Shown here: positions 378 to 25,715 of the stretch, piece after piece
Position numbering within the stretch: position 1 is the first letter of the stretch
How the letters are laid out: every line of letters starts with the position of its first letter
Notes under the pieces: model-generated
Databases searched by the model: none
Told to the model about the DNA's origin: nothing
What the model saw: only the letters and a program-made list of their open reading frames with translations
Program-made: the position numbers and the translations under genes
Virus record (IMG/VR): IMGVR_UViG_3300044846_002496
Coordinates: 1-28,345 of that record
DNA length: 28,345 bases
Direction: 5' to 3' (one strand)
From: a virus

Positions 378-429
378 GTTTAATTGTTACTTTCATATAA
401 ATATAACAAATCAAACAAACCAATGAGAA

Positions 430-1623
430 TTATTTTTTACAAACAATTAAATCTTTTTCATACGTTTCCATAGAAATAATTGTAATTTTTAAGTTACCCA
501 ATGTAAAGGTACCAATATCGCCAGAATCTTGTATAATTGCTGATAAATTTTGTATGATATCAAAATCTTGATTCGTAATACGATTTCCGTTTATTTCTAT
601 AATAATATCATCATAATCATATCGATCCGTATCAGTTAATGAATGGCAACGATTTCGCAAATCAAATTTGGTATTGGGTTGTTCCAACGTTATATATTTC
701 ATCCAATCTGCATCCGAATATATTCTATCACACCATGGTTCTAATGTACGTAATAATTCATACGAACAATTTTCTACGCGAAATGCAATTCCATATTTAC
801 TAGGAATGATTGGTTTTAGTAATGCATCATGTTTGCAAAAATGTCCCCATTTACGAATAAAATTTCTAGTAGATTTTAAATTTTGCATTTCCCACTCTGT
901 ACTATTTTTACCAGGTGTAGTTAATTCTGGATTAAATCTACTACCTCTGCAGGTCATATGATATACGCAACCTTCCCATGTTTGAATAAACTCAACACCA
1001 TTTAATTGGAATCGATTAAAAATATCCGAATCTTCTTTTGATTGAGGAGCATATAAAGGATCGTGGCCGCCTATCTCTTGAAAATCTGATTTCATAAAAG
1101 CCCATGGTGCAAATACGCCAATGGTATATTTTTTATTATGCTGTTTTGGAACTTCTCTATAAAACCATTCTAAAAAATCATTTTCATTAAACTGTTCTGG
1201 TTCTATACCAAAGTCCATTAACACCTTTTCGGGCCCCGGTGGATGTAACGGTGGTTCTATTCTTGTAAGTGACACGATTTTTTTAGGACCTATATTACGT
1301 TCAATTTCATCTAACGCAATAGGACATAAATACATATCAGCATGATATATCATACAAACATCATGGGATGCTACTTCATTAACTAATCGATCATATAATA
1401 TTGTATGTCCTAACCGAGTAGGACCCTCATTTCGAATTGCTTTGAAATGTGGATCCTTTGCCATCATTTCAACGCACCATTCCCATGTGCCGTCTTTATC
1501 ACTAAAATCATCTGCAACACAAATTTCTACTTCGTGCTCTCCCTGATTTTTACGAATAGCATCATATGACCATTTAAGATACTTTAAATTGTTTCTACTT
1601 GGTTGAATTATCGAAATCTTCAT
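430..1623 (-). CDS. GT2-family glycosyltransferase with a C-terminal extension
   Basis: Of 397 residues, about 1-270 form a GT-A type glycosyltransferase. The start MKISIIQPSRNN resembles the GT2 nucleotide-sugar binding strand and is followed by CVADDFSDKDG at about 35-45. A YHADMYL stretch at 93-99 sits where the metal-binding DxD normally lies, although only one Asp is left. KEDSD at 196-200 resembles the acidic 'ED' catalytic-base region, followed by a WEGCVYH segment. Residues about 280-397 are a beta-rich extension that I do not recognise. The enzyme should transfer a sugar from a nucleotide donor in the cytoplasm; no membrane segment is visible. It is the last gene of the sugar island. 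Its ATG overlaps the epimerase stop (TAATG). Donor and acceptor are unknown. Confidence 0.8.
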   Translation of the reverse strand: MKISIIQPSRNNLKYLKWSYDAIRKNQGEHEVEICVADDFSDKDGTWEWCVEMMAKDPHFKAIRNEGPTRLGHTILYDRLVNEVASHDVCMIYHADMYLCPIALDEIERNIGPKKIVSLTRIEPPLHPPGPEKVLMDFGIEPEQFNENDFLEWFYREVPKQHNKKYTIGVFAPWAFMKSDFQEIGGHDPLYAPQSKEDSDIFNRFQLNGVEFIQTWEGCVYHMTCRGSRFNPELTTPGKNSTEWEMQNLKSTRNFIRKWGHFCKHDALLKPIIPSKYGIAFRVENCSYELLRTLEPWCDRIYSDADWMKYITLEQPNTKFDLRNRCHSLTDTDRYDYDDIIIEINGNRITNQDFDIIQNLSAIIQDSGDIGTFTLGNLKITIISMETYEKDLIVCKK

Positions 1624-2531
1624 TATTGTAAACCTTTAATATAATTTGTCAACCATGCAGTTAAATTTCCCGTCGGTTCCCAACTTAATAATTTTTTTGC
1701 TTTACTATTATCAGCTAATGTTACTGTAGGTTCATATCTAGATTCATTATAAACTTTTTCTCCACCGAACATATCAGCAACCTCATTAACTGAATAATTA
1801 CTACCATTGCCAATATTGATGACTTCACCTTTTCCAACATTATTTGATTTCATAGCTAATATATTAGCATTTACAACATCGTCTACATATGTAAAATCTC
1901 TTCGCTGTTCGCCATCATTAGTTATAGTTAACGGTTTATTTTGTACATGTTGATTGCTAAATATTCCAATAACCGTACAATAAGCTCCTTCGGTTGCCAT
2001 ACGATCTCCGTATACATTAAAGTATCTTAAAGATACAGTTTCTAATCCATATAATGCATGAAACATTGTACAATATTGTTCGCCAATTAATTTTTGCAAT
2101 CCATATGGACTCATTGGACTAGTAGGTACCATTTCATTAGTAGGAATAATATCCGTATCGCCATATGCTGAACTAGATGCACTATATACAAATCTTCGTA
2201 TTTTAGCATCTCGTGCTGCCATCAAAACTTTTAATGTTACATCTACATTTGCTTTATTCGATGTTAATGGATCTTGAATAGATGGTTGAACTCTAGGAAA
2301 TGCTGCACAATGAAAAACTGTATCTACCCCGGTTAATAAATTAATTAATATGGTTTGGTCGATGCTACTTAAATCTGCAAACATGAATGTTGCCTTAGGA
2401 TTCAAATTTTCTAATTTTCCGGTAGATAAATTATCTATGATTGTAACATTATATCCTTGTTCAATTAATTTATCAACTAAATTACTCCCTACAAATCCAG
2501 CACCACCTGTAACTACTACTTTTGTTTTCAT
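1623..2531 (-). CDS. NAD-dependent sugar epimerase/dehydratase (extended SDR, GalE-like)
   Basis: A complete 302-residue extended short-chain dehydrogenase. The NAD-binding glycine motif is GGAGFVG at 9-15 (GxxGxxG). The NAD adenine-ribose contact is IIDNLSTG at 31-38. The catalytic serine lies in YSASSSAYG (116-124) and the YxxxK pair is Y143/K147. RYFNVYG at 169-175 is typical of UDP-hexose 4-epimerases and related nucleotide-sugar dehydratases. It probably converts a nucleotide sugar used by the surrounding transferases, for example UDP-glucose or UDP-GlcNAc to the galacto form or, with the UDP-sugar dehydrogenase at 13.2-14.1 kb, a UDP-uronic acid. It starts through an ATGA overlap with the upstream gene. 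Substrate cannot be read from sequence; 4-epimerase is the likeliest reaction. Confidence 0.85.
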   Translation of the reverse strand: MKTKVVVTGGAGFVGSNLVDKLIEQGYNVTIIDNLSTGKLENLNPKATFMFADLSSIDQTILINLLTGVDTVFHCAAFPRVQPSIQDPLTSNKANVDVTLKVLMAARDAKIRRFVYSASSSAYGDTDIIPTNEMVPTSPMSPYGLQKLIGEQYCTMFHALYGLETVSLRYFNVYGDRMATEGAYCTVIGIFSNQHVQNKPLTITNDGEQRRDFTYVDDVVNANILAMKSNNVGKGEVINIGNGSNYSVNEVADMFGGEKVYNESRYEPTVTLADNSKAKKLLSWEPTGNLTAWLTNYIKGLQ

Positions 2532-3478
2532 ATAAATACTTTTTTCATGTGTTCTATAAATTTATTTTCTGAATGATGTTCCGCATACAATTGTTTAGTT
2601 TGATTAGAACATTCATTATAGAAATCTTTATCATCTTTTAATAATTTAGCTAATTTTCTTGCTAATTCCAAATTTCCTGATTCAATTGATAACGACGGAT
2701 GCAAACTTCTTTGAGTATCTACCTCATCATAGCCAATACAAGGAATTCCTAGATATGAACAATTCATTGCAAATGTTCCAGCTGCAAACGTTGGCATTAA
2801 ATGTATTGCGTATTTAAATTCATTTAATTTGTAAATCCATTGCACCCAATTCATGTAAGGTAAGAATGATAAGTTTTCAATTAAATCTTCTTCTGGTTTT
2901 TTCCTACCCATACTAGGTGCATATATTGGTTGTTCAAAATCCATTGCTGCAATATAACTATCAAAGCCACCATACCATCGACAAAATGTTCCTCCAATCA
3001 CTACACCATTACGTTCAACGGTTGGCAAAGATTGAACTGAATCTTCTATCATTAATGATGGGATATCCGTAATAGGTATCGTTGGATTAAGTCCTTTAAA
3101 ATATGAAATATCTGTTTTGTTTTCAGTTAATATTCCATCAACAGATGCTAAAATATTAAAATGATAAAACTGATGTTGCAATGGCATATCTTGAAAAATC
3201 CAACTTGGACCTTCTTGCATAAAATATACTTTATCTGCAAAGCGCCTTGCTTTTGATACTACATCGATATTGAATATTTGATCTCGAAATGAATTAGTTT
3301 TTCCAATTAATAGAATTGCATAATCATAATGATCGGTTACAGTATCCATTGACAACATTGGCCAATGCATAGCACCTAACGCACACATTTGCGCAAATTC
3401 TACTCGCATATTATCGTGAGTTCTGGGTATTGGTCCAGAAAATCCCATTTCCGTTAAAAATATAATTTTTTTATTCAT
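2528..3478 (-). CDS. GT-B-like glycosyltransferase (divergent)
   Basis: A 316-residue protein counted from MNKKIIFLTEMGFSG; an in-frame GTG further upstream is possible but would increase overlap with the preceding gene. The ATG at 3476-3478 overlaps the previous stop by 8 nt with GGTGGGG just before it. The N-terminal strand-turn 'FLTEMGFSG', a central switch near 'VVIGGTFCRWYGG' and the C-terminal 'YLGIPCIGYDEVDTQRSLHP' fit two Rossmann-like domains of a GT-B enzyme. The last third, with a small-residue rich stretch (MPTFAAGTFAMNCSYLGIPCIG), resembles the donor-binding region of GT-B enzymes. No canonical EX7E motif is evident. Glycosyltransferase is the best guess from fold pattern and context. 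Confidence 0.6.
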   Translation of the reverse strand: MNKKIIFLTEMGFSGPIPRTHDNMRVEFAQMCALGAMHWPMLSMDTVTDHYDYAILLIGKTNSFRDQIFNIDVVSKARRFADKVYFMQEGPSWIFQDMPLQHQFYHFNILASVDGILTENKTDISYFKGLNPTIPITDIPSLMIEDSVQSLPTVERNGVVIGGTFCRWYGGFDSYIAAMDFEQPIYAPSMGRKKPEEDLIENLSFLPYMNWVQWIYKLNEFKYAIHLMPTFAAGTFAMNCSYLGIPCIGYDEVDTQRSLHPSLSIESGNLELARKLAKLLKDDKDFYNECSNQTKQLYAEHHSENKFIEHMKKVFI

Positions 3479-4283
3479 TACCCCACCATTCTTTATATGC
3501 ACGTTCTAACCAATATTCTCTGTATCGTTGCATTGGGTTTTCTGGTATAGCATTCCATTGTACTACGTATGCTGCGTGTGCTAAATTATCTAAAGTATCT
3601 TGCCACCAATGATGTGGATGAAAGTAAATTAAATTCTTTCTAGAAACATCCATCATACTATACTGTCTAGGCAATATCTTTGTAGGCACATTCCATTCCG
3701 TACGCAATAAATTGAATAAGCCCTGATCTGTTCCTACTCTAAATTGAGAATATGATTCTATTATTGCATCTTTATTATCCCAATAAAATTTTGTTAATTT
3801 AGATAAAAATTCTTTGTGCGTTTCATTTAAAATAACATAACCACATTGATGATAATCATGCAATTCCATTCCCCATTGTTTACCTAAAAATTTCTGAGAA
3901 TATGATGTTACATTTCTAGATACCCATTCATAGTCACCCTCGATGGCTACAGATGTTAATTTTCTGTCAGTTAATTCAAAAATATTAGGACAAGAAGGAT
4001 GAACTGTTGAATCGGCATCAACGATTAATACTTGATCGTATTCAATTCCGTTATGTTCTAATATATCTAAAACATACCAACGTTGCCAACTAATTAACAT
4101 TTCAGATTCAGGACATATTAAATCTTTAAGTATGAATACCTCGGCATTGTTTTGTGCTGCCCATCGTTCCCATGATTTAACACCCCATTCATATCCTGCA
4201 CTTCTAGGTGCAGTTACAGATTGACCTTTTACGATTGTTTCGTCTCGATCAATCCACGGAATTACAATTATATTTTTTTTCAT
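3471..4283 (-). CDS. GT-A glycosyltransferase, GT8-like
   Basis: Starting at the ATG of 4281-4283 (ATGA overlap with the upstream stop) the protein has 270 residues; a start four codons earlier is also open. The core motif is VLIVDADSTV with the DxD metal site D89-A-D91, preceded by ISWQRWYVLDIL, a helix typical of GT8 and related enzymes. GYVILNETHKEF and GTDQGLFNLL further on match the 'N.G.....' and 'DQ..lN' blocks used by GT8-like enzymes for acceptor and donor binding. A FHPHHWWQD segment near the C-terminus supplies the His often used as last metal ligand. It should be a soluble Mn-dependent transferase of the sugar island; sugar and acceptor are unknown. Confidence 0.7.
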   Translation of the reverse strand: MKKNIIVIPWIDRDETIVKGQSVTAPRSAGYEWGVKSWERWAAQNNAEVFILKDLICPESEMLISWQRWYVLDILEHNGIEYDQVLIVDADSTVHPSCPNIFELTDRKLTSVAIEGDYEWVSRNVTSYSQKFLGKQWGMELHDYHQCGYVILNETHKEFLSKLTKFYWDNKDAIIESYSQFRVGTDQGLFNLLRTEWNVPTKILPRQYSMMDVSRKNLIYFHPHHWWQDTLDNLAHAAYVVQWNAIPENPMQRYREYWLERAYKEWWGNE

Positions 4284-4906
4284 ATTATTTTCCATGTTGC
4301 CCCATTGTTAGTATAAAAATGATTTACTTCCAATTGTGGCGTATACATATATTGTTGTTGTTTACCTAAAATATCAAATGCCCAATATCTATCTTCTTTA
4401 CCTGGTAATGTTTCATCAATTGGCGTATTCAATAAATCTTGTTTGTTATAAAAACAAAATGCATTATGTAAAAATGGTCTGTCTTCTATTTTAGAAAACA
4501 TATTGACACATTCCGTATCAATAAAATGAGTCCATATATCAGTACGTGTAATCTTTTTGCCTTTGTATATTGGTGTTTGTTTTCCAAATACTGCAGCATT
4601 GTTTTGTAATAATGTTTTAACTAACGTTGAATCATATTTAACGAGTTGAGCATGTGCAGATAGAATTAATATAGTATCATATTTGCACAATTCAATTGCA
4701 GAATTAATTGCAATGCCTGGAGTATAATTGTCAATATTGATAATTGATATATCAGCATCGAACAATTTAACGATATCAATTGATGCATCATTGGATGCGT
4801 TATCTGCAATAATAATTTGCGAGTTAGGTATATGATCTAAAACAGATTGAATAGCAAATCCAATATATTCTTGTTCATTTCGATTTCGTATAATAACACT
4901 AACCAT
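4280..4906 (-). CDS. GT2-family glycosyltransferase
   Basis: I place the start at 4904-4906 (MVSVIIRNRNEQEYIG, 208 residues) because the GT2 fold begins with this strand and it leaves only an 8-nt overlap with the NeuB-like gene. Earlier in-frame ATGs would add 15-20 residues without family resemblance and overlap NeuB by up to 68 nt. The first domain is typical GT2: VSVIIRNRNE, then SVLDHIPNSQIIIADNASND, which binds the nucleotide. INSAIELCKYDTILILSAHAQL corresponds to the region leading to the DxD, here altered to SAHAQ. GKEDRYWAFDIL holds the acidic ED pair and EVNHFYT the late His. The loss of a clear DxD is unusual, but several GT2 branches vary here. Confidence 0.7.
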   Translation of the reverse strand: MVSVIIRNRNEQEYIGFAIQSVLDHIPNSQIIIADNASNDASIDIVKLFDADISIINIDNYTPGIAINSAIELCKYDTILILSAHAQLVKYDSTLVKTLLQNNAAVFGKQTPIYKGKKITRTDIWTHFIDTECVNMFSKIEDRPFLHNAFCFYNKQDLLNTPIDETLPGKEDRYWAFDILGKQQQYMYTPQLEVNHFYTNNGATWKII

Positions 4907-5699
4907 TGAATCTACCAGCATATTCGTTTCTCGATGTTGTTTCCAATGCATTGTAACCTGTACCATGATCGATCATCATACTATTAATATAATTAATATA
5001 TGTACGTAATCCAAGCAATTCTGCAGGTAAGATTGCAAATTTATTATCTCTACCTGGTAAGTCATTGTTTATCGTGAAATGTTTTTCTATTACAATTGCA
5101 CCACATCCAATTGCAATTTTAGCAGATTCAATACCTTGAATGTGATCGCTGTATCCAATTAGGTTGTGTATTTTTTGCAATTCAATCATTTTTGGTAAAT
5201 TGGCAATTTCATATGAACCAGGATATACCGAAACGCAATGCATTAAATACAACGTAGCAGAATTGAAAAAACTTATACTATGTTTAATTTCATCTAACGT
5301 AGATGTGCCTGTAGACATAAATACGGTTTGAAAATTCTCATTACAAAATTTTATCAATTCTATATTTCTAGATTCAAAACTAGGTATTTTAACTGAATTA
5401 CAACCTAACTGTACTAATAACTCGGCATCTTGTATACTAAAGACTGATGATAAAAATTCAATTCCAATTTTATTACAATATGAAATTAATTCTTGATGCC
5501 GTTCATATGTTAATTCTGCTTGTTCATAAATTTGTCTGCGACCATCTGAATCCCATTCTCCGGACTTTAATCTAGAAACAGACCAAGTTTGAAATTTTGC
5601 ATAATCAGCTCCGTTATCTGCAGCTGCTTGTATCATTTCTTTTGCCAATGTCATATCACCGCAGTGATTCCATCCAATTTCTGCTATTATTTTAATCAT
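4899..5699 (-). CDS. neuB: N-acetylneuraminate synthase-like (NeuB) without the SAF domain
   Basis: The 266 residues form the TIM-barrel synthase domain of the NeuB/SpsE family, which condenses phosphoenolpyruvate with an N-acetylated hexose to make a nonulosonic acid. Visible motifs are AEIGWNHCGD (6-15), KFQTW (35-39), KIPSFE (104-109), STGTST (129-134), the Mn-ligand segments YSDH (H186) and EKHFT (H207), and PGRDNKFA (215-222). Usual NeuB proteins are about 340-350 residues and end with an antifreeze-like SAF domain that closes over the neighbouring active site. Here the protein stops just after the barrel. The histidine after GxD is also Asn. It is followed one gene downstream in coordinates by NeuA, giving a synthase/activator pair. 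The exact sugar (sialic, legionaminic, pseudaminic or other) cannot be told. Confidence 0.85.
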   Translation of the reverse strand: MIKIIAEIGWNHCGDMTLAKEMIQAAADNGADYAKFQTWSVSRLKSGEWDSDGRRQIYEQAELTYERHQELISYCNKIGIEFLSSVFSIQDAELLVQLGCNSVKIPSFESRNIELIKFCNENFQTVFMSTGTSTLDEIKHSISFFNSATLYLMHCVSVYPGSYEIANLPKMIELQKIHNLIGYSDHIQGIESAKIAIGCGAIVIEKHFTINNDLPGRDNKFAILPAELLGLRTYINYINSMMIDHGTGYNALETTSRNEYAGRFNG

Positions 5700-5700
5700 G

Positions 5701-6261
5701 TTATAATTTTTGTTTAACGATTTCTAAATCTTCGGTGTAATGAATATCTGTTGCCGAATCTCGCATTGCACCGATTCGTTTACTAACTAAACCATTTTTT
5801 ATGTATGAAAATTTAAAAATACGCACAGACCCACTACGTTTATATGATGGATTAACTGTAATCAAATCATCGTAGTTATTACTAATCATATAATCAATAC
5901 ATGTATCTAAATCATGTTCTCTATCTGGATTATCTGGTTGCAATGCTACAACTAAATCATATTTGCCATCTTCAATTTTACTACAAAAATCAATGTATAC
6001 ATCTGTAACTTCAGCATCGCCTAATAAATGATTGGGGCGAGCTGTCCATAATACATCATTTCGTAATGCAATATCCCATACTTCAGGACTTTCTGACGAT
6101 ATTACAATTGTAGGATCGTGCTTACTGTGTTTAGCATATTCGATAGAATGTTCTACTAATGTTTTACCATTAATGGTTTGAATATTTTTTTGTTCTAATC
6201 TTGTAGAATCTAATTTTGCTGGTATTATAACCAATATTTTTATTTTTTCTTTAGTAGCCAT
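5701..6261 (-). CDS. neuA: CMP-nonulosonic acid cytidylyltransferase (NeuA-like)
   Basis: This 186-residue protein carries the CTP-binding signature of acylneuraminate cytidylyltransferases, IPAKLDSTRLEQKN at 13-26, where the family has IPARxxSxRLxxKN. It is followed by GKTLVEHSIEYA and VALQPDNPDRE (105-115), the equivalent of LQPTSPxR. It should transfer CMP from CTP to the acid made by the NeuB-like enzyme next to it, giving the donor for a transferase of the island. It is shorter than usual (about 220-230 residues) but ends normally with a TEDLEIVKQKL helix. The ATG lies 22 nt inside the end of the upstream methyltransferase gene in another frame, and NeuB starts 1 nt after its stop. Confidence 0.85.
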   Translation of the reverse strand: MATKEKIKILVIIPAKLDSTRLEQKNIQTINGKTLVEHSIEYAKHSKHDPTIVISSESPEVWDIALRNDVLWTARPNHLLGDAEVTDVYIDFCSKIEDGKYDLVVALQPDNPDREHDLDTCIDYMISNNYDDLITVNPSYKRSGSVRIFKFSYIKNGLVSKRIGAMRDSATDIHYTEDLEIVKQKL

Positions 6262-6827
6262 ATAAAATATAAATTATCTTGTGTACTGGATGTATCTTCT
6301 ATTATAAAATATTTTTCTAAAAATCTATCATATCTATGATATAATTTCGGATGAGTTACAGCTTCACCCTCTTTTTTGATTTCGCGCAACAGTATATATT
6401 TAGGATTCCATAATTCTAATATATTAGTAATTATATTCTCAGCTTTTTCATACTGTAAATGCATCATATGATCTGATATTAAAAGTAAATCAATATTTTT
6501 TACTTTACATGTAGAAAATATTTCTTCGGAGTCACCTTCATGAAAAATAACTTTATTTTTAATATCATTATGCATATCACTAAAAGACGCGTCATAGAAT
6601 AAATCATTACAGTATAAATTTACACTATTATTTGATTTATGTATATAATATAAATTTCTACATGGACCAGCGCCCATTTCAAAGATATTAATATTGTCTT
6701 TTAATATTAAATGTTTATTTAAAATGTCTACCAATTCTATCGAATTTTTGTGTAATTTTTTGCCTGCTGACATTCCAACATGCGTTTGATATTTTTTTGG
6801 AAATCTATCTTTGCCAAAACTTGTCAT
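6240..6827 (-). CDS. SAM-dependent methyltransferase (class I)
   Basis: A 195-residue protein with the SAM-binding motif I FEMGAGPCRNL at 49-59. YCNDLF gives the acidic residue for the ribose hydroxyls, HEGDSEEIF is a motif-II-like segment and LLLISDHMMHL a strand-4 region. The N-terminal SAGKKLHKNSIELVDIL helix precedes the Rossmann fold as in small-molecule methyltransferases. Lying between the NeuA-like gene and a hydroxyacid dehydrogenase, it could methylate the nonulosonic acid or a sugar of the glycan. The start is fixed by an ATGA overlap with the upstream gene, with AAAGGA upstream. Acceptor not readable. Confidence 0.7.
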   Translation of the reverse strand: MTSFGKDRFPKKYQTHVGMSAGKKLHKNSIELVDILNKHLILKDNINIFEMGAGPCRNLYYIHKSNNSVNLYCNDLFYDASFSDMHNDIKNKVIFHEGDSEEIFSTCKVKNIDLLLISDHMMHLQYEKAENIITNILELWNPKYILLREIKKEGEAVTHPKLYHRYDRFLEKYFIIEDTSSTQDNLYFIWLLKKK

Positions 6828-9481: not shown

Positions 9482-9482
9482 A

Positions 9483-10085
9483 TTAATGCCAAATTACTTT
9501 TGTTATCACTCCTTCTTTATCTAATAAAATTCTATCCGGACCGCCTTTAATTGCATTTCCAAAATTATATCCCGTATCATGTCCAATGAATTGTATAATT
9601 TCTAAAGCTCCTATGGCAACGGCTTCGTCTACTGCTTGTTTAATACCTAAATTAATCATAGATCCATAATCATCGAATAACAAATAACAATCAGTATCAC
9701 AATTCATTGATGTAACGCGATTTATATCTTGTATTAATTCTTCATATCGATGACCTGCATCTAAAAAGAACATGCTAACCGGTTCAGATATGGGTAATTG
9801 TCTGCTAGAATATAAATCAAAATAACATATGTATTCAATGTTATCTATTCCAGAATTTAATTGTATTGCATCTTGGTTATCATTAATATTAACTGTATAT
9901 ACTTTGTTAAATAAATGTGATAATAATTTAGTAGTCTGTCCTTTGTTTGTTCCAAATTCGACAGCCGTTTTATCTTTAAAACCTTGAAAGAAATTCCAAA
10001 CGTCTTGTTTAAATTTAAATGATGTAGTACTTAAGTTTTGATTCTTATCTTCACCGATATCTTGTAATATTTCTTCTATTGTCAT
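9483..10085 (-). CDS. SAM-dependent methyltransferase (Methyltransf_24/CmcI type)
   Basis: A 200-residue class I methyltransferase. Motif I is AVEFGTNKGQTT (41-52). FFLDAGHRYEELIQDI at 106-121 matches the 'iDg.H.ye....D' block of the Methyltransf_24 family, and LLFDDYG (135-141) follows as the next conserved strand. This family methylates hydroxyl groups of sugars and small metabolites in glycan and antibiotic pathways. Its position among glycosyltransferases fits O-methylation of a sugar, possibly capping the glycan. Start is 2 nt after the upstream stop; no SD is evident. Confidence 0.7.
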   Translation of the reverse strand: MTIEEILQDIGEDKNQNLSTTSFKFKQDVWNFFQGFKDKTAVEFGTNKGQTTKLLSHLFNKVYTVNINDNQDAIQLNSGIDNIEYICYFDLYSSRQLPISEPVSMFFLDAGHRYEELIQDINRVTSMNCDTDCYLLFDDYGSMINLGIKQAVDEAVAIGALEIIQFIGHDTGYNFGNAIKGGPDRILLDKEGVITKVIWH

Positions 10086-10087
10086 AA

Positions 10088-11077
10088 CTAGTTTAATATT
10101 TGTTGTATTTGCGTAACCATAGTTTGCGTACTAGTATAATCAACGCCGCCAGCAATGGTTTGTTCTATAAATTTTGTTTTTCGCTGATAATTTTCTATGT
10201 ATGGTAAAAAATCATCATTTAAATCAAACATTCCATCATAGTCATAAAATACTCCTGTTTGCCCGCTATTCTTTATTAGAATTGTTGGCACTCCCATTTG
10301 TATTGGTTTCAATGCAAAGGTTGATGGAGCAGAAATAACACAAACGCTTTCGGCTATTAGTTGATTATCATCTTCTACATCTATAAATATTTTATAATTT
10401 AAATCTTTGATGATTTTTATTAAGTATTGAATGTTGTTTGCATATTGTTCATCAGCTCGACTCTTTAATTTAATTGCAACAGGCAACTTGTATTTTTCTT
10501 GTAATTTTTTTAAAGATTCATGATTGAATATATGACCGTCAAATTTGACATCAAATGGTGCACTTCGATTTCCTAAAAAATTAACAATTACTAGAATGTG
10601 TTTTTTATCAACATGTTGATATTGTTTTAACATATCATTAGATGGAATCCCGGCGCCTATACACCAATCTTCATGATGTTCTTTTGAACCAAAAACAAAA
10701 CAATAATCATATGCTTTTTTATATGCATTAACTGTAAATTTTTTTTCTTCATTGCCATGCGAACATGCAATCAATGGACAACGTTTATTTTTATAAATAC
10801 TGTCTAATGATGTTTTAGGGGTAGCTCGATTATCATCGGATATAATTAAATCATATTTTGATGAATCGCAAAATCCAGAATATGTTTCTGTAAAATATTT
10901 TGAATATTGAGTATCAAATACTTTTCGCAAATCATTATCGCCCGTCCATTTAAATGAATCTTGCATTTGATATGTTTTTAACAAATGCAATTCATATTGT
11001 TTTGCAAGTTCAGGAATTATAGGATATATACGTTCTCCTACACGATATTGCGATGTTATAAATAATATTTTTTTCAT
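10088..11077 (-). CDS. GT-B-fold protein, glycosyltransferase or epimerase-like
   Basis: A 329-residue protein with two apparent Rossmann-like halves. It starts MKKILFITSQYRVGERIYPIIPEL, similar in layout to UDP-GlcNAc 2-epimerases and GT-B enzymes. A CSHGNEEKKF stretch at 105-114 and, near the end, ISAPSTFALKPIQMGVPTIL (248-267) recall the donor-binding half of CDP-glycerol transferases and 2-epimerases. With NeuB and NeuA in the same island, a NeuC-like 2-epimerase supplying the hexosamine would be a natural missing step, but I see no diagnostic epimerase residues. A glycosyltransferase is equally possible. It starts in a TAATG overlap with the deacetylase gene. Confidence 0.55.
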   Translation of the reverse strand: MKKILFITSQYRVGERIYPIIPELAKQYELHLLKTYQMQDSFKWTGDNDLRKVFDTQYSKYFTETYSGFCDSSKYDLIISDDNRATPKTSLDSIYKNKRCPLIACSHGNEEKKFTVNAYKKAYDYCFVFGSKEHHEDWCIGAGIPSNDMLKQYQHVDKKHILVIVNFLGNRSAPFDVKFDGHIFNHESLKKLQEKYKLPVAIKLKSRADEQYANNIQYLIKIIKDLNYKIFIDVEDDNQLIAESVCVISAPSTFALKPIQMGVPTILIKNSGQTGVFYDYDGMFDLNDDFLPYIENYQRKTKFIEQTIAGGVDYTSTQTMVTQIQQILN

Positions 11078-11703
11078 TAACTATAAATCCTATGTATTTT
11101 AAAAGTTTCTACATACCCGAAACCTCTTCTAGCACTTTGATAATTTGTATGAAATGCTTTGATTACTTCCGGAGTAAAATATAAATGTTTTGACTGAGTT
11201 TTAAATTTATGCAATTGAATAATTTTCTCATCCATATAACTTGTTATATCTACAAAATAATTAGGTACCCATGTTTCTAACGTACTTGGAGTTTTATAAT
11301 CAATGATACCGCATTTTTCTTTTCGCGTTAACGCCATTCCGACAACATTAATTTTTTTGTGGTCATGGTGCGTATCTTCATCGGGTGGTAACATTATCAA
11401 ATCATATTGTGACATATCATGATTTGTTTCAATCATATGTACCAATTGGTCATATCCAAAATTTATAGTATGATCTTCTAATAAAAAAGATCCGCGGACA
11501 TTAGATAATTGTCCCCAAATTGAATTACATTCTGCAAATCTATTTTGTCCCGATGATGAATCAAATTTTCCACCTATCGATATAGTAATTATATCAAATT
11601 GCGTATCTTGAAATTTATACATGATGCCTAATGCACCATATTCAATATCATCTGGATGTGGTGATAAACAAAGAACTTTATTTGCATTTAAAAATTTTGC
11701 CAT
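11077..11703 (-). CDS. PIG-L/LmbE-family N-acetylsugar deacetylase
   Basis: A complete 208-residue member of the PIG-L (LmbE) family of zinc hydrolases that remove the acetyl group from N-acetylglucosamine-type sugars. The first metal motif is SPHPDDIEYGALG: H16, D18 and D19 correspond to the HPDD signature. The second is PDEDTHHDHKK at 107-117, with H112 and H115 completing the zinc site. The C-terminal TQSKHLYFTPEVIKAF segment is also typical. It probably creates a free amino sugar in the glycan or its precursor, which another enzyme could then acylate or methylate. It begins right after the stop of the DUF616 gene, with AAAGGA upstream. Confidence 0.85.
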   Translation of the reverse strand: MAKFLNANKVLCLSPHPDDIEYGALGIMYKFQDTQFDIITISIGGKFDSSSGQNRFAECNSIWGQLSNVRGSFLLEDHTINFGYDQLVHMIETNHDMSQYDLIMLPPDEDTHHDHKKINVVGMALTRKEKCGIIDYKTPSTLETWVPNYFVDITSYMDEKIIQLHKFKTQSKHLYFTPEVIKAFHTNYQSARRGFGYVETFKIHRIYS

Positions 11704-12408
11704 TTATTTTTTTCCTTTATGTCCGCTAACCATTACAAAATGACGATTATTTCTAACGTCTCCTGGAATATAATCTATTATAATATTATTTTTCCAAGAA
11801 ACAAAATTTAAGCTCAATTGATCTCGCCTAGAACCATATTTCATTTCAGTCCACCAATCTTCATCCAATTGTATGCAGTTTGGATCATTATGTTTTCTAA
11901 TTACCACACTAGTTTCAGCTAATCCGAAGTTTGCAGGAAATCCTTGGTCTTGATATCGTTTGATTTGTTCTTGTATTAGATATGGGTTATCTTTCCAATT
12001 ACGAATTCCTCGTTCGGGACTACGTTGCATATTTTGTTGGCCTAACTGCAATATTACATTTGCTTCTTCGTATATGCAATTTCTTTTATCAAAACATTGC
12101 ATATGATCGTATGTGCGAAATATATTATCATCTAATAATTCTCGAAAGTCACCAACCATTTGCATATTGCCATCTACCCATATAGAGTACTCATATTCTT
12201 GCAAATATCTATGCGGTACTGCTTTATACTTTCTAGAATTTCTAGTAGTATCTTCATATATTGTATCTACCAATCGAACGTCCCAAAGATCTGATTTAAT
12301 TTCGCGATCTGTAAAACAAATATAATCAACATCATCTGCTATAAATGGATTCTTTGGCAACTCATCATATTGACCAAAAATTGCCGTATATACTACTGCT
12401 TTTTTCAT
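11704..12408 (-). CDS. DUF616 (TOD1/MUCI70-type) glycosyltransferase
   Basis: A 234-residue protein with the hallmark beginning KAVVYTAIFGQYDELPKN. This is followed by VDYICFTDRE, RNSRKYKAVPHRYLQEYEYSIWVDGNMQM and, towards the end, WWTEMKYGSRRDQLSLNFVSWK. These are the conserved blocks of the DUF616 family, now regarded as a GT-A type glycosyltransferase domain. The WVDGN segment (about 77-81) is the DxD equivalent, and the RDQLS block binds the acceptor side. Such proteins occur in bacterial capsule and O-antigen clusters and in phages. ATGA overlap with the GT9-like gene upstream. Donor and acceptor unknown. Confidence 0.8.
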   Translation of the reverse strand: MKKAVVYTAIFGQYDELPKNPFIADDVDYICFTDREIKSDLWDVRLVDTIYEDTTRNSRKYKAVPHRYLQEYEYSIWVDGNMQMVGDFRELLDDNIFRTYDHMQCFDKRNCIYEEANVILQLGQQNMQRSPERGIRNWKDNPYLIQEQIKRYQDQGFPANFGLAETSVVIRKHNDPNCIQLDEDWWTEMKYGSRRDQLSLNFVSWKNNIIIDYIPGDVRNNRHFVMVSGHKGKK

Positions 12409-13247
12409 ATGTAAATTTCACTTTTAATGATATTGGAACCCAATGTCCCTCTAGGGACTGTATATGTTGGTGCATACTTTGCAATAGTATCATTCATACC
12501 CGTTTGATTGCCAACATTAAATTTAGCTTGAGTCTTTATGTATAATTGTATTCTAGTATTGATATATCTCATATCCAATGCCGGAATAAATTTAAAATTT
12601 GTATCAGGAATATTTGTCCAATAAAACATTGGTAAATTGTATTCATCTAATTTTTTTTGTATACTATCTCGACCTTCGCCGTTGTATCGATTAGATATAA
12701 GTAACGTGCCAAATGCCCCATCGCAATGATTTTTAATTATCTTGTCACCAAATTGTTTTTCATCTTCTGAAAAATATAATTCTGGTTCGATATCATCATA
12801 TGAATCAAATTGCCAAAATCTTAACATTTGTTGCAACAATGGTTCATCAATGTCTGAATATATTCGATAATGGTCGTTAAAAACATCTTCATCAAATGAA
12901 TCAATAAATCCGTCAACATATGGATTATTATCAAATATTGTATGAACAACTTGAAATGGATCATCCCATGATGACCAATTTTGTCCTAAATGTCCAAACA
13001 TAGATCGTAACAATGTAACAGATGGTATCCAAACCTTACAATCTGGATACCGTTCTTTTAATTTTCTAGGCATTGCTGATATAATTCCCCAATCGCCTAC
13101 TCCAAAACATGTACGAAGAATAACAAAATTTTGTGCATTTAAATATTCATCAGGAATATATGATGCATCAGAAATATGAAATCCTAATTGATCAACTTCG
13201 CCAACATCAAAAAGTTGATTGTTATATGTTCTCCAAAATGTTGCCAT
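12405..13247 (-). CDS. GT9/heptosyltransferase-like GT-B glycosyltransferase
   Basis: A 280-residue protein. ILRTCFGVGDWGIISAMPRK at 43-62 matches the N-terminal GT9 signature (...GLGDxLLxxPxxxALKxxYP), and KLKERYPDCKVWIPS continues it. The C-terminal KFNVGNQTGMNDTIAKYAP resembles the 'iGndtG..HlAaa.g.P' block that binds the ADP-sugar donor in heptosyltransferases, although the His is missing. The middle of the protein is divergent and acidic. By family it would add a heptose or similar sugar, but the divergence means the sugar should not be assumed. It starts 1 nt after the stop of the UDP-sugar dehydrogenase without a visible SD. Confidence 0.6.
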   Translation of the reverse strand: MATFWRTYNNQLFDVGEVDQLGFHISDASYIPDEYLNAQNFVILRTCFGVGDWGIISAMPRKLKERYPDCKVWIPSVTLLRSMFGHLGQNWSSWDDPFQVVHTIFDNNPYVDGFIDSFDEDVFNDHYRIYSDIDEPLLQQMLRFWQFDSYDDIEPELYFSEDEKQFGDKIIKNHCDGAFGTLLISNRYNGEGRDSIQKKLDEYNLPMFYWTNIPDTNFKFIPALDMRYINTRIQLYIKTQAKFNVGNQTGMNDTIAKYAPTYTVPRGTLGSNIIKSEIYI

Positions 13248-13248
13248 A

Positions 13249-14082
13249 TTATTCGCTTACTGCTCGTCCTTTTGATTCATTCCAATCTTGTTCTGGACGT
13301 ACTTCTAAATTTGTTTTCCAACCTGCTTCTATCGTATTCATTGGAGTTCCTAATTGTTTACCTAATGTAACTAATGCATTAACATCCTTAGGGAAACAAG
13401 TTCCACCATATCCCATTCGGCCATCTGGACCAGGAACGTGTAAATGACTATCTCCGATTCTGCCATCTGCTGCAAATCCGTATAATGCATCATTCCAATT
13501 TGCATCTAATGCAGTTGCTAATCGTTTAAATTCATTCATAATGGATACTTTAGTTGCAAAAAACGTATTGTTCATGTATTTGATAAGTTCCGCAGTTGTA
13601 GAATCGGTATGAATAAAATGTCGATTCATAAATCGTTGTGCAAACAAATCTTCTACCCGTTTTGTCAATTTTACATCGCCGCCTAAAATAATACGAGACT
13701 GTGTCATCATATCTAATTTTGCAGTACGTTCTGTTAAAAATTCAGGACTAAATATAATATCTAAATTGGAATATGTATCTGATAATTTTTTTGTTGTTCC
13801 AGGTAATATTGTAGATTTTATAATATAAATTGGCCCACGTTTTACATTGTTAAATACATTTTCAATATACGATATATCTTGAGACCCATCTCGGCGCATC
13901 GGCGTTGGTACGCACACAAAAACAAAGTCACATTCAAATATATCTTCAATTGTATGTGTCGATCGCAATGGATTAATATCATGCACGCGTACTTCCGCTA
14001 CTGGTGAAAATGCAAATGCTTGGCTTTCTCCAACAAAGCCATTACCTATAATTCCTACTTTATAATGTTTCATAATATTCAT
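13249..14082 (-). CDS. UDP-glucose/GDP-mannose 6-dehydrogenase family, two-domain short form
   Basis: The 277 residues cover the NAD-binding and central domains of the nucleotide-sugar dehydrogenase family, which oxidises the C6 alcohol of a UDP- or GDP-hexose to the uronic acid. Seen are GIIGNGFVGES (10-20), VCVPTP (56-61), STILPGTT (90-97), SPEFLTE (112-118), the catalytic lysine block AELIKYMNN (K168) and the nucleophile loop GYGGTCFPKD with C229. Family members normally have 390-430 residues with a third, C-terminal UDP-binding domain (PF03720); it is absent here and the ORF ends cleanly before the next gene. Two starts, 14082 or 14073, are possible. The reduced form may bind its substrate differently. 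Confidence 0.85.
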   Translation of the reverse strand: MNIMKHYKVGIIGNGFVGESQAFAFSPVAEVRVHDINPLRSTHTIEDIFECDFVFVCVPTPMRRDGSQDISYIENVFNNVKRGPIYIIKSTILPGTTKKLSDTYSNLDIIFSPEFLTERTAKLDMMTQSRIILGGDVKLTKRVEDLFAQRFMNRHFIHTDSTTAELIKYMNNTFFATKVSIMNEFKRLATALDANWNDALYGFAADGRIGDSHLHVPGPDGRMGYGGTCFPKDVNALVTLGKQLGTPMNTIEAGWKTNLEVRPEQDWNESKGRAVSE

Positions 14083-14686
14083 TTTGTTTTATTTGTCGTT
14101 CAATCGTTTTTGGGTGATATAAGCAAAAAGCTTGTGTATCTGCTGGGAGCATTGAATATGTCTTAAAGCCATCCAATCTCTCGTGCACCTTATTGATCCA
14201 TTTGATCTCTGGTTTGTTTTTCCAAATCCTCCATTGATAATCTGGCCAATTGATATGCCCGTTAGTCATTACATGCCAACCCCATTTCTGAACATACTCC
14301 TCGGTCAGCCCTTCTACCGTATTAGCACGAGGCACTAAATATACATCATTATCTGGATTAAGTTCTAATAAATCAGGAAGATGATCAATTAAAAGTTTAT
14401 TAGGTATTTCGTCTGCATCAATTTGAAAAACGTAATCGCCTGTGCATAAACTGGTTAATTTATTTTTCCAATTGGCAAAATGATGATCAAATTCTGATTC
14501 ATGCCATTTATACCAATTTAATTTAGAATAATGTTTTAATATTTCGCGAACTTCATGAGTACCATTTTTTGAATCAAACAAAACAACAATTTCATCTTGT
14601 TCTCGTTTATGTTCTAATAAAATTCCTAACAGTCGTTGAATTTCTAAAAATTCATTACAAACCGTAATAGCATAACTTATTTTCAT
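14060..14686 (-). CDS. GT2-family glycosyltransferase
   Basis: A compact 208-residue GT2 enzyme. It begins MKISYAITVCNEFLEIQRLL, the standard first strand and helix. EIVVLFDSKNG binds the nucleotide, and TGDYVFQIDADEIPNKLL contains the DxD site D90-A-D92. The C-terminal half is tryptophan-rich (WGWHVM, PDYQWRIWKN, IKWINKVHERLDG), a block common in LPS core beta-glucosyl and related transferases. No membrane segment is visible. The start is set by an ATGA overlap with the GT4 gene upstream. The 3' half (about 14100-14340) is distinctly less AT-rich than the 5' half. Confidence 0.8.
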   Translation of the reverse strand: MKISYAITVCNEFLEIQRLLGILLEHKREQDEIVVLFDSKNGTHEVREILKHYSKLNWYKWHESEFDHHFANWKNKLTSLCTGDYVFQIDADEIPNKLLIDHLPDLLELNPDNDVYLVPRANTVEGLTEEYVQKWGWHVMTNGHINWPDYQWRIWKNKPEIKWINKVHERLDGFKTYSMLPADTQAFCLYHPKTIERQIKQNEYYETL

Positions 14687-15966
14687 GCATCAACTTTTTT
14701 CAACGTTGGTAATGTAATTTTAGTTGGCTGATTATCTACCTTTTTCATTTTAGGTAAATTCAATTGTACCATCGATGGAACTGATTGTAAATTTCCATCT
14801 ATGATTTTCAACACCTTTTTATATACTTCAGCTACTGCAGTTTTAGTAAATGTTGAATTTACAAAATAACGTTGGCGTTTAGCTAATTCTTGCCACTTTT
14901 TATAATTCTTTTGAACTTCTTTCATCATTTTACTGGCATATCCATAATCTGGAGTAAACCATTTAGCACCTTCAATTAAAAATTCATTTCTAGTTGATGC
15001 ATGAATGTCTGTTAATCCACCTGGTAATGCACAAATAAAATCTTTCTTAAGAAAATCTGCAGGACCTGAATAGTGTGGAGCAATGATTGGTTTACTTGTA
15101 GTAGAAAACTCTAATAATGGTCTTCCAAATCCCTCTGCCTTCGTAAATGATATCATTGCTTTTACTTTGGGATGATTATATAAAAGATTCATTTCTTCAT
15201 CAGCCAAATCTCCGTGCAACAAATACACGTTAGGTAATTTTGCATCACCAAACATATCTCGTATTTGTTCAATTTTATTTTCAATCTCCATTCTATCCAT
15301 TACTGAATATGTAGCACCACTTGATTTTAATATAAGAGCAGGAGCATCTTTTTGATTTTTATATGTATTGAAGAAACAATGAATTAATCCACTAATATTT
15401 TTACGATCTTCCCCAACTTGACCTTGTAACCAATGTCCAACCGATAAAAATGCAAATGATTCTGGAATTTGATCTAAAATTTCTAATTGCGTTTGTACAT
15501 TGTTTGTATACACAGATTCATCAAAATATTCTGGAATTACTTCGATTTGCGTTGTTATAGGTTTATTATGTTTTTGCGATGTATTAATAAATACTTGTTT
15601 GGTAAATTCACTCGGAACAATAACCATTTGCATTGCATTTAAGTTGTCTATCCATTTCTCCGGACAAATATCGCCTTCAGTTCCTGCAGTTACGCCAATA
15701 TTGTATTTTCCAACTGCTTGAAATTCATTAGGTACTGTAATTTGTACCCAAATGTCTGGTTGCGATGTTAATGGCAATGGAATAATTCTTTGATTCCATT
15801 CTTGTGGAATTGGATAAGTAAATGGTGTATGACCCCATGGCAATGAAAGCAATTTAATGTTCCATTCTTTACCTCGTTGTTCAATAAAATTAGCAATTAC
15901 TTCTCGGGCATGATGACCATATCCAGATTGTGTTGCTACTGGTGATGCTATAACTACTGTGCGCAT
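14683..15966 (-). CDS. GT4-like GT-B glycosyltransferase with repeated LPxLKKVD tail
   Basis: A 427-residue GT-B enzyme. The N-terminal domain opens MRTVVIASPVATQSGYGHHAREV, with the small-residue loop that binds acceptor or donor in GT4 enzymes. The C-terminal donor-binding domain includes FLSVGHWLQGQVGEDRKN and KAEGFGRPLLEFSTTSKPII, whose E-G-F-G-R-P-L-L-E is the EX7E catalytic/donor motif of the clan. The last 26 residues are outside the fold and contain the motif twice (LNLPKMKKVD and ITLPTLKKVD), a sequence that recurs at the N-terminus of the next GT. The gene overlaps that neighbour by 13 nt; AGGAA precedes the ATG. Soluble; sugar unknown. Confidence 0.85.
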   Translation of the reverse strand: MRTVVIASPVATQSGYGHHAREVIANFIEQRGKEWNIKLLSLPWGHTPFTYPIPQEWNQRIIPLPLTSQPDIWVQITVPNEFQAVGKYNIGVTAGTEGDICPEKWIDNLNAMQMVIVPSEFTKQVFINTSQKHNKPITTQIEVIPEYFDESVYTNNVQTQLEILDQIPESFAFLSVGHWLQGQVGEDRKNISGLIHCFFNTYKNQKDAPALILKSSGATYSVMDRMEIENKIEQIRDMFGDAKLPNVYLLHGDLADEEMNLLYNHPKVKAMISFTKAEGFGRPLLEFSTTSKPIIAPHYSGPADFLKKDFICALPGGLTDIHASTRNEFLIEGAKWFTPDYGYASKMMKEVQKNYKKWQELAKRQRYFVNSTFTKTAVAEVYKKVLKIIDGNLQSVPSMVQLNLPKMKKVDNQPTKITLPTLKKVDA

Positions 15967-17450
15967 ACTATTCCTGTTTTTTCGTATTTTTTAGTTGTAA
16001 CTTTATGTAATGTATATCTTGCTCGCGTTTGTAATTTGGATTTGAATAAATAATCAATCATTGAAATCATTTTTTGACCCATTTGTTCTGCCGTAAGTCC
16101 ATTTTTCAAACACCATTCTCGTCCTGCATGTCCCATTGACTCGCGAAGTGTCTCCGGCGTGTCATACCAATAACGAATTGCATCAGCAATATCTTCAAAA
16201 CGAGCTCGGTCATCAAAGATATAAGGAGTTTGCGGAGAGCCTTGAAGGCTTCTATTACTTGGAAATATTGGTTTCGCCCATATGCCGTGATTTTTGAATT
16301 TACCCATATGATTTGTTGCAAATTCACCATCAAAACGAATCCATTCATCATTTTCATCCGTAAACCCACATTGATCTTGTAATCCGCCAGTAACATTATT
16401 AATAATAGGCGTTCCTGATAACATTGCCTCAGTTGAACTAAGTCCCCAACCTTCGTTGCTACCAATATTGACTACTACATCTGCAACATTATACATTGCA
16501 TTTAAATCTTGCGGAGATAATTTTTGTTCCGAAAATAGTATTTTACAATCTGGTGCTAATGCTTTGTGAATTGCACGCAAATCCGTACCATTCTCATCAA
16601 CAATCTGCGTATGCATTAAAAGTGCAACTTTACTTCTTTTATCTTCTGGCAATCCATCTACAAACGTTTTGAATGCTAATATTAAATCGCCTGGCTGTTT
16701 TCTTCGTATATTTCGGTTATTCCAAAACACTACAAAATCAACATCATTTTTAGTTTTAATACGCGCATACATTTCTTTATATGTTGCATCATCTTGTGAT
16801 ACCGGACTAAATGTATTGTGATTCAATCCGTGTGGAACAAATCCTGTAATAATTTGATTCCATTTTACATCTTGCGGTACGGAATCATTTGAATCATAAT
16901 CTACAACATCAAATCCATTTTGAGTAAGTACTTCTCGATGAATGTTATCTGATTGTTTGCTAATACCCATAATTAAATCGCAACTTGCGTAATATGGTGC
17001 ATTCCACATCGGATAAGGTAAATCATCCCAAATTGAATAATATACAATAGGAATATTATACGTTGTTTTAATTTCATGTTCAATAGCATACAACCATGTC
17101 CAATATCTTGGATCGGTAAAATGAAATATTGCATCAGGCTGTTCTTGATTAATAATTGACATTACGATGTTTCTATCACCATATCCATTCCATGGAATAA
17201 TTTTAACAGATGCATCTGCTATGCCTGTTTCTTTTGCAACTTGTGCTGATAAATCAAAAGCCTGGCCAGCTTCTGGATGTTTTAATGCTCCGCCTAACTG
17301 TACCCAATCATAATGATGTACTGTATTGAAAATAATTTCTCGACTAATTGTGCCAATGCCAGATGGCAAACGGAAATCGTCAGCTAACAATAAAATTTTC
17401 TTTTTCTTGGGCTTGTTCGGGTCGAACTTTTGTAACTTTGGTAACTCCAT
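15954..17450 (-). CDS. GT4-family glycosyltransferase, first gene of the sugar island
   Basis: A 498-residue GT-B enzyme. After a basic N-terminal tail (MELPKLQKFDPNKPKKKK) the first Rossmann domain starts ILLLADDFRLPSGIGTISRE, where GIGT is the typical glycine loop. The donor domain has VVFWNNRNIRRKQPGDLILAF and NIGSNEGWGLSSTEAMLSGTP with the EX7E pair E333/E341. The 'GLNHNTFSP' segment is the GT4 linker. It is longer than usual because of a C-terminal helical region (to about 498) ending YEKTGIVCAQ. It follows a 32-nt gap with an AT-rich box and has AAAGGA four to five bases before the ATG, so translation probably starts here independently. Confidence 0.85.
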   Translation of the reverse strand: MELPKLQKFDPNKPKKKKILLLADDFRLPSGIGTISREIIFNTVHHYDWVQLGGALKHPEAGQAFDLSAQVAKETGIADASVKIIPWNGYGDRNIVMSIINQEQPDAIFHFTDPRYWTWLYAIEHEIKTTYNIPIVYYSIWDDLPYPMWNAPYYASCDLIMGISKQSDNIHREVLTQNGFDVVDYDSNDSVPQDVKWNQIITGFVPHGLNHNTFSPVSQDDATYKEMYARIKTKNDVDFVVFWNNRNIRRKQPGDLILAFKTFVDGLPEDKRSKVALLMHTQIVDENGTDLRAIHKALAPDCKILFSEQKLSPQDLNAMYNVADVVVNIGSNEGWGLSSTEAMLSGTPIINNVTGGLQDQCGFTDENDEWIRFDGEFATNHMGKFKNHGIWAKPIFPSNRSLQGSPQTPYIFDDRARFEDIADAIRYWYDTPETLRESMGHAGREWCLKNGLTAEQMGQKMISMIDYLFKSKLQTRARYTLHKVTTKKYEKTGIVCAQ

Positions 17451-17478: not shown

Positions 17479-17482
17479 TGGT

Positions 17483-19077: not shown

Positions 19078-19093
19078 ATTATAAAATAAGAAA

Positions 19094-19743: not shown

Positions 19744-19746
19744 TTA

Positions 19747-21103: not shown

Positions 21104-21104
21104 G

Positions 21105-21533: not shown

Positions 21534-21534
21534 A

Positions 21535-25711: not shown

Positions 25712-25715
25712 ACTA

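Follow-up and report, generated by a model that had tools for sequence, protein, structure and literature searches.

To what does a phage attach sugars when it spends 17 kb on genes for making and attaching them? This question is raised by the window analyzed here, an entire IMG/VR fragment of 28,345 bp; because the window is the complete fragment, wider claims are based on relatives. The phage from which it derives is lake-type and T4-like. Between positions 430 and 17450 there are 20 successive ORFs, all on the minus strand, with neighbours that overlap or lie no more than 2 nt apart, so that the consecutive, overlapping, same-strand arrangement described in an earlier, sequence-only reading was confirmed. 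Added together, the coding sequences amount to 101% of the span. The placement of this island between replication and lysis genes was also borne out. On one side is a T4-type replication block (18121..28251, minus strand) with genes for a PD-(D/E)XK nuclease, clamp loader, dUTPase, clamp and PolB, and on the other is the gene for an 84-aa, holin-like membrane protein of the lysis region (113..367, minus strand; hydropathy 2.27), whose homologue in the phage immuto adjoins the endolysin and holin.

The head of the island (14060-17450) consists of three glycosyltransferase (GT) genes. GT498, the first island gene (15954..17450; all island features are on the minus strand), encodes a GT4-type (GT-B) enzyme (PF00534, 33 bits). 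Its predicted fold (AlphaFold2, pLDDT 72.7) matched GT4 enzymes in the PDB, including 3oy2 of chlorella virus NY2A, which ranks second among these matches and is a parallel at fold level only. The second gene, GT427 (14683..15966), is GT4-like (PHROG glycosyltransferase E 5e-17; PF00534 below cut-off), and the third, GT2-208 (14060..14686), specifies a 208-aa GT2 enzyme (PF00535 E 1e-8) and is the last conserved gene ahead of a hypervariable sugar cassette.

This cassette comprises 17 genes in the window (430..14082). The gene next to the trio encodes a UDP-sugar dehydrogenase with only the N-terminal and central domains (13249..14082; PF00984, PF03721; TIGR03026 E 1e-51 over 64-295/413). It is followed by an ORF without family assignment (12405..13247; no Pfam or PHROG match and no credible PDB profile match), a TOD1/MUCI70-type GT (11704..12408; PF04765 E 1e-17), a PIG-L/BshB-type N-deacetylase (11077..11703; PF02585 E 8e-8, TIGR04001 E 6e-9), a second ORF unassigned in Pfam and PDB profile searches (10088..11077), and a methyltransferase-like protein of the Methyltransf_24 type (9483..10085; PF13578 E 1e-4, below cut-off), which is the single match behind the methylation step proposed earlier. 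Next are a weak match to a procollagen-type (PLOD) GT domain (8711..9481; PF25342 E 4e-5, below cut-off), a weak GT2-like GT (7777..8718; PF13641 E 0.006), a D-2-hydroxyacid dehydrogenase family member (6824..7780; PF02826 E 3e-45) and an ORF without family match (6240..6827) that in relatives accompanies NeuB and CMP-sugar synthetase genes. In the window it precedes a short CMP-sugar cytidylyltransferase of nonulosonate or KDO type (5701..6261; PF02348 E 6e-16; KdsB/PseF models) and a 266-aa NeuB-type nonulosonic acid synthase that stops near model position 261/329 (4899..5699; PF03102 E 7e-58; TIGR03569). The remaining genes encode a GT2 GT (4280..4966; PF00535 E 2e-14), a protein whose DxD-type motif (VDAD) suggests GT-A, an assignment that the PDB profile search did not confirm (3471..4295), a possible, weakly matched GT4-like protein (2528..3502; BshA-type 5d00, E 0.034) with a weak immuto homologue annotated as a mannosyltransferase, a nucleotide-sugar epimerase/dehydratase (1623..2531; PF01370 E 9e-63) and a GT2 GT (430..1623; PF00535 E 7e-8), which in relatives is usually the last locus gene and whose homologue ends most complete islands.

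The sequence-only reading had counted about 11 to 12 GTs. Eight have family support, five above the Pfam cut-off (ORFs at 430, 4280, 11704, 14060 and 15954) and three below it with E<0.01 (7777, 8711 and 14683); twelve are reached only if the ORFs at 2528, 3471, 10088 and 12405 are counted. These four and the ORF at 6240 had no significant Pfam or PHROG match, and PDB profile searches gave no assignment for the four (best E 0.034, for 2528). The predicted enzymes of sugar-nucleotide synthesis and deacetylation were recovered as epimerase, NeuB, CMP-sugar synthetase-type, dehydrogenase and PIG-L matches (sugar-nucleotide or decorating enzymes at 1623, 4899, 5701, 6824, 11077 and 13249).

The closest isolated comparison is Flavobacterium phage vB_FspM_immuto_2-6A (NC_055915), a T4-like phage in which the same order is found: PD-(D/E)XK nuclease, the motif ATATTTATA, GT498, GT427 (45% identity), GT2-208 (61%), variable sugar genes, epimerase and terminal GT2 (46%). 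It differs in the other cassette genes, in having DNA polymerase A rather than PolB, and in the placement of DpdA and the lysis genes. Its island is annotated; we found no paper in the literature describing this island or its function. Major capsid protein (MCP) and TerL of three large relatives (G001-G003) are 55-58% and 53-54% identical to those of immuto, and the MCPs of immuto and RM378 are 37% identical. By its relatives, the lineage fits the Far-T4 or RM378-immuto-type T4-like phages; of the T4-type genes the window carries those for replication only, and no capsid, portal or terminase gene. The queuosine genes of the relatives are as reported for Far-T4 clade 1 (PMC4360716).

The trio is the constant part of the locus. 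In 38/38 related contigs the locus opens with the same three GTs, retained at 51-92% identity, and then continues into a hypervariable cassette; GT427 invariably comes after GT498. GT498 is 67-92% identical across 80 contigs, about 47-48% identical in immuto and 28% in RM378, and GT2-208 homologues are found in Mel-JY01 (39%) and RM378 (24%) as well as in immuto. Homologues of the trio thus occur in phages of Flavobacterium, of Rhodothermus and of a reported Microcystis host. A search for GT498 in 84,980 bacterial and archaeal genomes found none and indicated no host, with low sensitivity as it used two short patterns only.

Behind the trio almost everything changes. When the 239 proteins of 21 cassettes were grouped at 30% identity, 146 families resulted, of which 94 had a single member. 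From about position 799 to 14046 the window cannot be aligned to G009, a relative 91% identical to it (13.2 kb in the window, 5.2 kb in G009). Between G001 and both G010 and G007, the two flanks are 96.5% identical in DNA, and the 9.55 kb and 11.8 kb between them are unalignable. Assembly chimerism was considered as the source of these differences and rejected, because three separately named contigs (L010, L011 and L013) carry the alternative cassette on the same backbone. In L032 and L058 the cassette genes are mostly 89-95% identical and the trio 72-73%; therefore cassettes cross backbones. The proposal that the whole island is an insertion into a T4-like core did not hold when relatives were compared for its presence or absence as a block: throughout the lineage the trio stays in place, and exchange is confined to the cassette that follows it. 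Recombination between the trio and the lysis genes probably exchanges whole cassettes at a time, a proposal that belongs to the overall reading given below.

Is the acceptor at the host surface? No island protein (0/20) has a 19-residue window with a mean Kyte-Doolittle hydropathy of at least 1.6, the membrane criterion used, while E. coli Wzx (rfbX) and Wzy (wbbH) gave 9 and 6 segments. The flippase family Wzx (PF01943) and the initiating transferase family (PF02397) were absent from near-complete relatives and three complete isolates, in searches with E. coli proteins and 14 control genomes as positive controls, and one tape measure was the only multi-TM protein in these genomes. The absence of membrane steps noted from the sequence thus extends to same-pathway genes elsewhere in related phages. 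The island lacks the flippase, polymerase and initiating phosphosugar transferase of Wzx/Wzy O-antigen or capsule clusters, and in place of the GtrA flippase, membrane GtrB and serotype-specific Gtr of Gtr-type conversion it has soluble GT2 domains only; matches to phrog_841 were weak (E 0.001-0.01). Nevertheless, many O-antigen GTs are soluble, and the E. coli O-antigen GTs used as control showed no TM segment in the identical scan, so the lack of TM segments alone cannot exclude a host surface acceptor. Phage GTs might modify host undecaprenyl-linked or lipid-A-core intermediates at the inner membrane, with host WecA-type initiation, flippase and polymerase finishing the product, which would block superinfection or the binding of progeny to debris. 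We consider this main rival doubtful but worth keeping in view. Variable cassettes fit variable host surfaces, and the available accounts propose such a role for GT clusters of pelagimyophages (PMC7029224) and cyanophages (PMC7824862). Against it, an initiating transferase or flippase was found in 0/11 records, and the head trio is common to phages of the three host groups named above, which suggests that the acceptor is phage-borne rather than host-specific.

The timing of expression also bears on the acceptor. A single copy of the late-type promoter motif ATATTTATA (17471..17479) heads the island, 20-29 nt upstream of GT498, and the next copy (396..404), upstream of the holin-like gene, starts the lysis genes and closes the island. 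Among the genes of four large relatives, ATATTTATA precedes 37/89 of the structural ones, 0/101 of those for replication and base modification, and GT498 in 4/4. It precedes GT498 in 67/69 distinct relative sequences and is close to zero for adjacent genes. In immuto it heads the homologous operon (48954) and is also present before the portal, sheath, tube, hub and terminase genes. A sigma-70 and terminator scan gave fewer matches than in shuffled sequence and is not counted as evidence. The motif suggests that the island is expressed late, together with structural genes, which would leave little time for conversion of the host surface.

The same comparison bears on whether the island instead puts sugars on a modified base in phage DNA (7-deazaguanine or hydroxymethyl pyrimidine). 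This was an initial idea taken from nearby DpdA/QueD genes: FolE-QueD-QueE genes lie beside PolB in relatives, and in the window a TGT-like protein, a QueD-like protein and a GT are encoded between PolB and the clamp gene (22259-25292), forming a candidate DpdA-type 7-deazaguanine module, with DNA or tRNA as its possible target, apart from the island. The TGT-like protein has conserved DSGG(Y/F)Q, C301/C305/C308 and HN motifs (TIGR00449 E 4e-7 for the G002 homologue; PF01702 E 4e-5, below cut-off). These genes are outside the island and lack its head motif, however, and Mel-JY01 and RM378 carry trio homologues without detectable deazaguanine genes; after these two comparisons the idea was rejected for the island. 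No DNA-GT family match was found within the island, the ThyA-like gene of G001 best matches thymidylate synthases, and a dozen sugar-chemistry genes far exceeds any DNA glycosylation known to us. We regard DNA glycosylation by the island as improbable; judged by sequence, the non-late module beside the DNA polymerase appears the better candidate for DNA modification. The sequence-only reading had named a virion protein or DNA as a soluble acceptor and had omitted host lipid-linked glycans. Of its two candidates the evidence leans to the virion, because the island has the structural-gene motif that base-modification genes lack and because of the two phages with the trio and no detectable deazaguanine genes.

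Large T4-like sugar islands have long been listed as 'LPS genes' of unknown function, and available parts of that literature suggest, for cyanophage LPS clusters, possible stuffer DNA for headful packaging (PMC3037559). The wide variation of cassette content and length would suit such accidental or non-functional cargo. We think this very improbable here, as all 20 ORFs are intact and packed, the trio persists in every related contig, and the promoter motif is kept in all but two of the 69 sequences.

We therefore favor, as rather probable, the reading that the locus is expressed late and glycosylates virion proteins in the cytoplasm, through a conserved trio for the core and an exchangeable cassette for the outer sugars. 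There the trio would assemble an invariant core on a phage-made protein that is itself invariant (capsid, tail or fibre). Variable outer sugars would be synthesized and attached by the cassette enzymes; in the window they would probably include an acidic sugar of nonulosonate/KDO type as well as uronic acid, some de-N-acetylated. An acceptor with O-glycosylation-like repeats was sought in the relatives, and no mucin-like or collagen-like protein stood out.

Elements of this arrangement are known elsewhere. Chlorovirus PBCV-1 glycosylates its capsid with virus-encoded, mostly soluble GTs that produce a constant core and variable outer sugars (PMC5408694, PMC7826918); the likeness of the island is at gene level only (soluble GTs, a constant and a variable gene set), with the fold match of GT498 to the NY2A enzyme. 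Chloroviruses differ in being eukaryotic viruses with scattered genes and early GT expression, and their glycan is proven, whereas that of the island is predicted. To our knowledge, mycobacteriophage capsid and tail glycosylation involves few GTs and no large swappable cassette. Phage-encoded GTs are thought to add sugars to capsid or tail proteins there, according to the account available (PMC11256854). Among T4-like phages, the cyanophage P-SSM2/S-SSM7 'LPS' clusters and the pelagimyophage host recognition cluster resemble the island in their large GT and sugar-nucleotide sets, and are described in the available accounts as hypervariable and of unproven function (PMC3037559, PMC7029224, PMC7824862). 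According to these accounts they sit near hli03/phoH or among tail-fibre genes between VrlC and gp14, unlike the island, which lies between replication and lysis genes rather than in a tail-fibre or structural region, and no conserved head trio or structural-type promoter is reported in them. Large T4-like 'LPS clusters' are thus known, but we found no description in the literature of an architecture with conserved core, swappable cassette and late motif.

With a constant segment, an exchangeable one and a promoter motif of the structural-gene type, and with an isolated representative in the pair immuto/Flavobacterium sp. LMO8, the locus opens the target of phage sugar islands to direct testing. 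Whole-cassette exchange would leave near-identical phages with different glycans, a change comparable to the switching of O-antigen or capsule type in bacteria. We hold it an evenly balanced proposition that this is a phage 'glycotype' locus of a widespread T4-like lineage, specifying a protein-linked virion glycan with a constant core and an outer part switched by whole-cassette replacement, and by analogy a viral counterpart of bacterial serotype switching. If virions are glycotyped in this manner, cassette exchange would let phage surfaces vary uncoupled from the core genome, which would affect adsorption and the way phage diversity is read from core genes.

The window comprises a complete IMG/VR fragment of 28,345 bp, and positions 430-17450 are filled by 20 minus-strand ORFs that overlap or lie at most 2 nt apart. 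Genes for a PD-(D/E)XK nuclease, clamp loader, dUTPase, clamp and PolB lie upstream of this island. On the downstream side, in the direction of transcription, positions 113-367 encode an 84-aa membrane protein; its homologue in the isolated Flavobacterium phage vB_FspM_immuto_2-6A (NC_055915; immuto) adjoins endolysin and holin. The sequence-only reading had described 20 consecutive same-strand genes between replication and lysis genes, and both points are borne out by the ORF map and by the T4-type replication genes and lysis-type protein on either side. Five of the 20 genes matched glycosyltransferases (GTs) above Pfam cut-offs and three more had weaker GT support; six encode sugar-nucleotide or decorating enzymes, one is methyltransferase-like and five had no significant family match. 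The eleven to twelve GTs counted earlier are an upper bound, since profile searches did not support GT assignment for four of the candidates. Only the N-terminal/central parts of the family models are matched by NeuB (266 aa, 4899-5699) and the UDP-sugar dehydrogenase (277 aa, 13249-14082), both of which are shorter than the models. A YspA/SLOG-family protein (PF10686, 17483-17887) just upstream of the island is kept in relatives.

GT498, the first island gene (15954-17450, minus strand), is encoded in 93 candidate IMG/VR stretches, the best 80 of 93 at 67-92% identity. Capsid, portal and terminase of near-complete relatives are T4-like, with ~47-58% identity to those of immuto, which are related to their counterparts in Rhodothermus phage RM378. 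The relatives belong to the Far-T4 sphere (PMC4360716, PMC7198788), and this structural kinship makes Bacteroidota the likely hosts. The recorded host of phage Mel-JY01 (PP395634.1) is Microcystis.

GT498, GT427 (14683-15966) and a 208-aa GT2 (14060-14686), all on the minus strand, head the locus in this order in 38/38 contigs examined, and everything behind them varies. Immuto and Mel-JY01 likewise have the whole trio, and RM378 has recognisable counterparts of GT498 and GT2. Proteins of 21 cassettes behind the trio (n = 239) fell into 146 families, 94 of them singletons; epimerases/dehydratases, GT2, GT10/GT11, FkbM and other methyltransferases, DegT aminotransferases, NeuB and cytidylyltransferases dominated the Pfam census. 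Related contigs G001 and G010/G007 are ~96.5% identical in DNA on both flanks, but their cassettes (9.55 kb versus 11.8 kb) do not align at all, with breakpoints directly after the GT2 gene and directly before the lysis genes. The window and contig G009 share 91% identity across trio and replication genes and 87% at the lysis end, around unrelated cassettes of 13.2 and 5.2 kb. Contigs L032 and L058 show the reverse, with cassette genes mostly 89-95% identical and trios just 72-73%. Together these comparisons indicate that the cassette is replaced as a block between phage backbones and that the locus is old, with an exchangeable body. An insertion into a T4-like core, present or absent as a unit, does not describe it: the trio is kept in all contigs examined and only the cassette is swapped.

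The Mel-JY01 GT498 homologue (83442-84932) is two adjacent ORFs, reflecting a frameshift, a real split or a sequencing error. A 1227-aa Mel-JY01 protein annotated as FkbM methyltransferase (4750-8430) also matches GT427 and adjoins a structural gene. The same phage has genes for a prolyl 4-hydroxylase and an 805-aa ORF containing Gly-X-Y repeats. An uncultured 484-kb phage (LR756508.1, 305474-323530) carries relatives of GT498 and the window NeuB ~16 kb apart.

The motif ATATTTATA was enriched on the coding strand in upstream 60-mers of large relatives, mostly 20-35 nt ahead of start codons. It contains the reverse complement of the T4 late TATAAATA. In four relatives (G001, G002, G003 and G024) it precedes 37/89 structural genes (portal, neck, sheath, tube, hub and others) versus 0/101 replication and deazaguanine genes (p 4e-15, the four genomes not being independent), and GT498 in 4/4; in G001 alone the counts are 10/23 versus 0/25. 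Among distinct relative sequences, 67/69 carry it upstream of GT498, and genes near GT498 carry it in 0/94, 0/92, 0/81 and 1/80 cases. The window copies, at 17471 before GT498 and at 396 before the holin-like gene, thus bracket the island. In immuto the motif is found ahead of the portal, sheath, tube, hub and terminase genes and, at 48954, heads the homologous sugar operon. RM378 has TTATTTAA instead. Sharing this motif with structural genes, the island would be a late-type unit.

The invariance of the trio points to an equally constant acceptor-proximal core. The late-type motif in turn suggests that the acceptor is available late in infection, which would make it a virion protein. The predicted GT498 model has a GT4 fold, with PDB matches that include a chlorella-virus GT; this does no more than illustrate a parallel with chlorovirus capsid glycosylation (PMC5408694), in which the GT genes are expressed early. 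No obvious mucin-like or collagen-like protein, the kind of repeat-bearing acceptor previously envisaged, was found in relatives of the window.

The main rival to a virion acceptor is that the island acts on host surface glycans, the current explanation for similar clusters (PMC7029224, PMC7824862). The absence of a membrane step was confirmed: a 19-residue hydropathy scan found no segments in island proteins and nine and six in the E. coli controls Wzx and Wzy. No ORF with at least five segments occurred in relatives of 160, 160 and 131 kb or in immuto, except the immuto tape measure protein. Initiating sugar transferases (PF02397), which can have a single transmembrane segment, and Wzx (PF01943) were absent from 11 records, among them the complete genomes of immuto, Mel-JY01 and RM378, and control genomes scored positive. 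No flippase or initiating transferase thus came to light elsewhere in these phages. Lack of transmembrane segments alone does not exclude a host lipid-linked acceptor, however, because the scan gives zero for the cytoplasmic O16-locus GTs of E. coli as well.

DNA, the other soluble acceptor proposed from the sequence, is disfavoured for the island because the base-modification genes lack ATATTTATA, and because trio homologues also occur in Mel-JY01 and RM378, in which no relatives of FolE, QueD, QueE or TGT were detected. For DNA glycosylation in this phage, the stronger candidate is a module apart from the island (22259-25292), flanked by the PolB and clamp genes. It comprises a nucleotidyltransferase (24861), a QueD-like protein (24530), a GT4 (23505) and a TGT-superfamily (TGT/DpdA-like) protein (22259). 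FolE, QueD and QueE adjoin PolB in relatives. The TGT-like protein occurs in two types ~73% identical to each other and the neighbouring GT in two types 22% identical, each TGT-like type always paired with its own GT type (67/67 and 70/70 loci). This pairing may simply track two lineages; the GT is nonetheless always present. We regard this as a putative base-modification module, whose product is possibly a glycosylated 7-deazaguanine.

The original observation is confirmed, and its interpretation is supported in part. T4-like phages were already known to carry large sugar clusters; the combination of a constant trio, a block-exchanged cassette and a structural-gene promoter motif sets this one apart. 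The locus has a counterpart in an isolated phage, immuto, and is hence open to test there.
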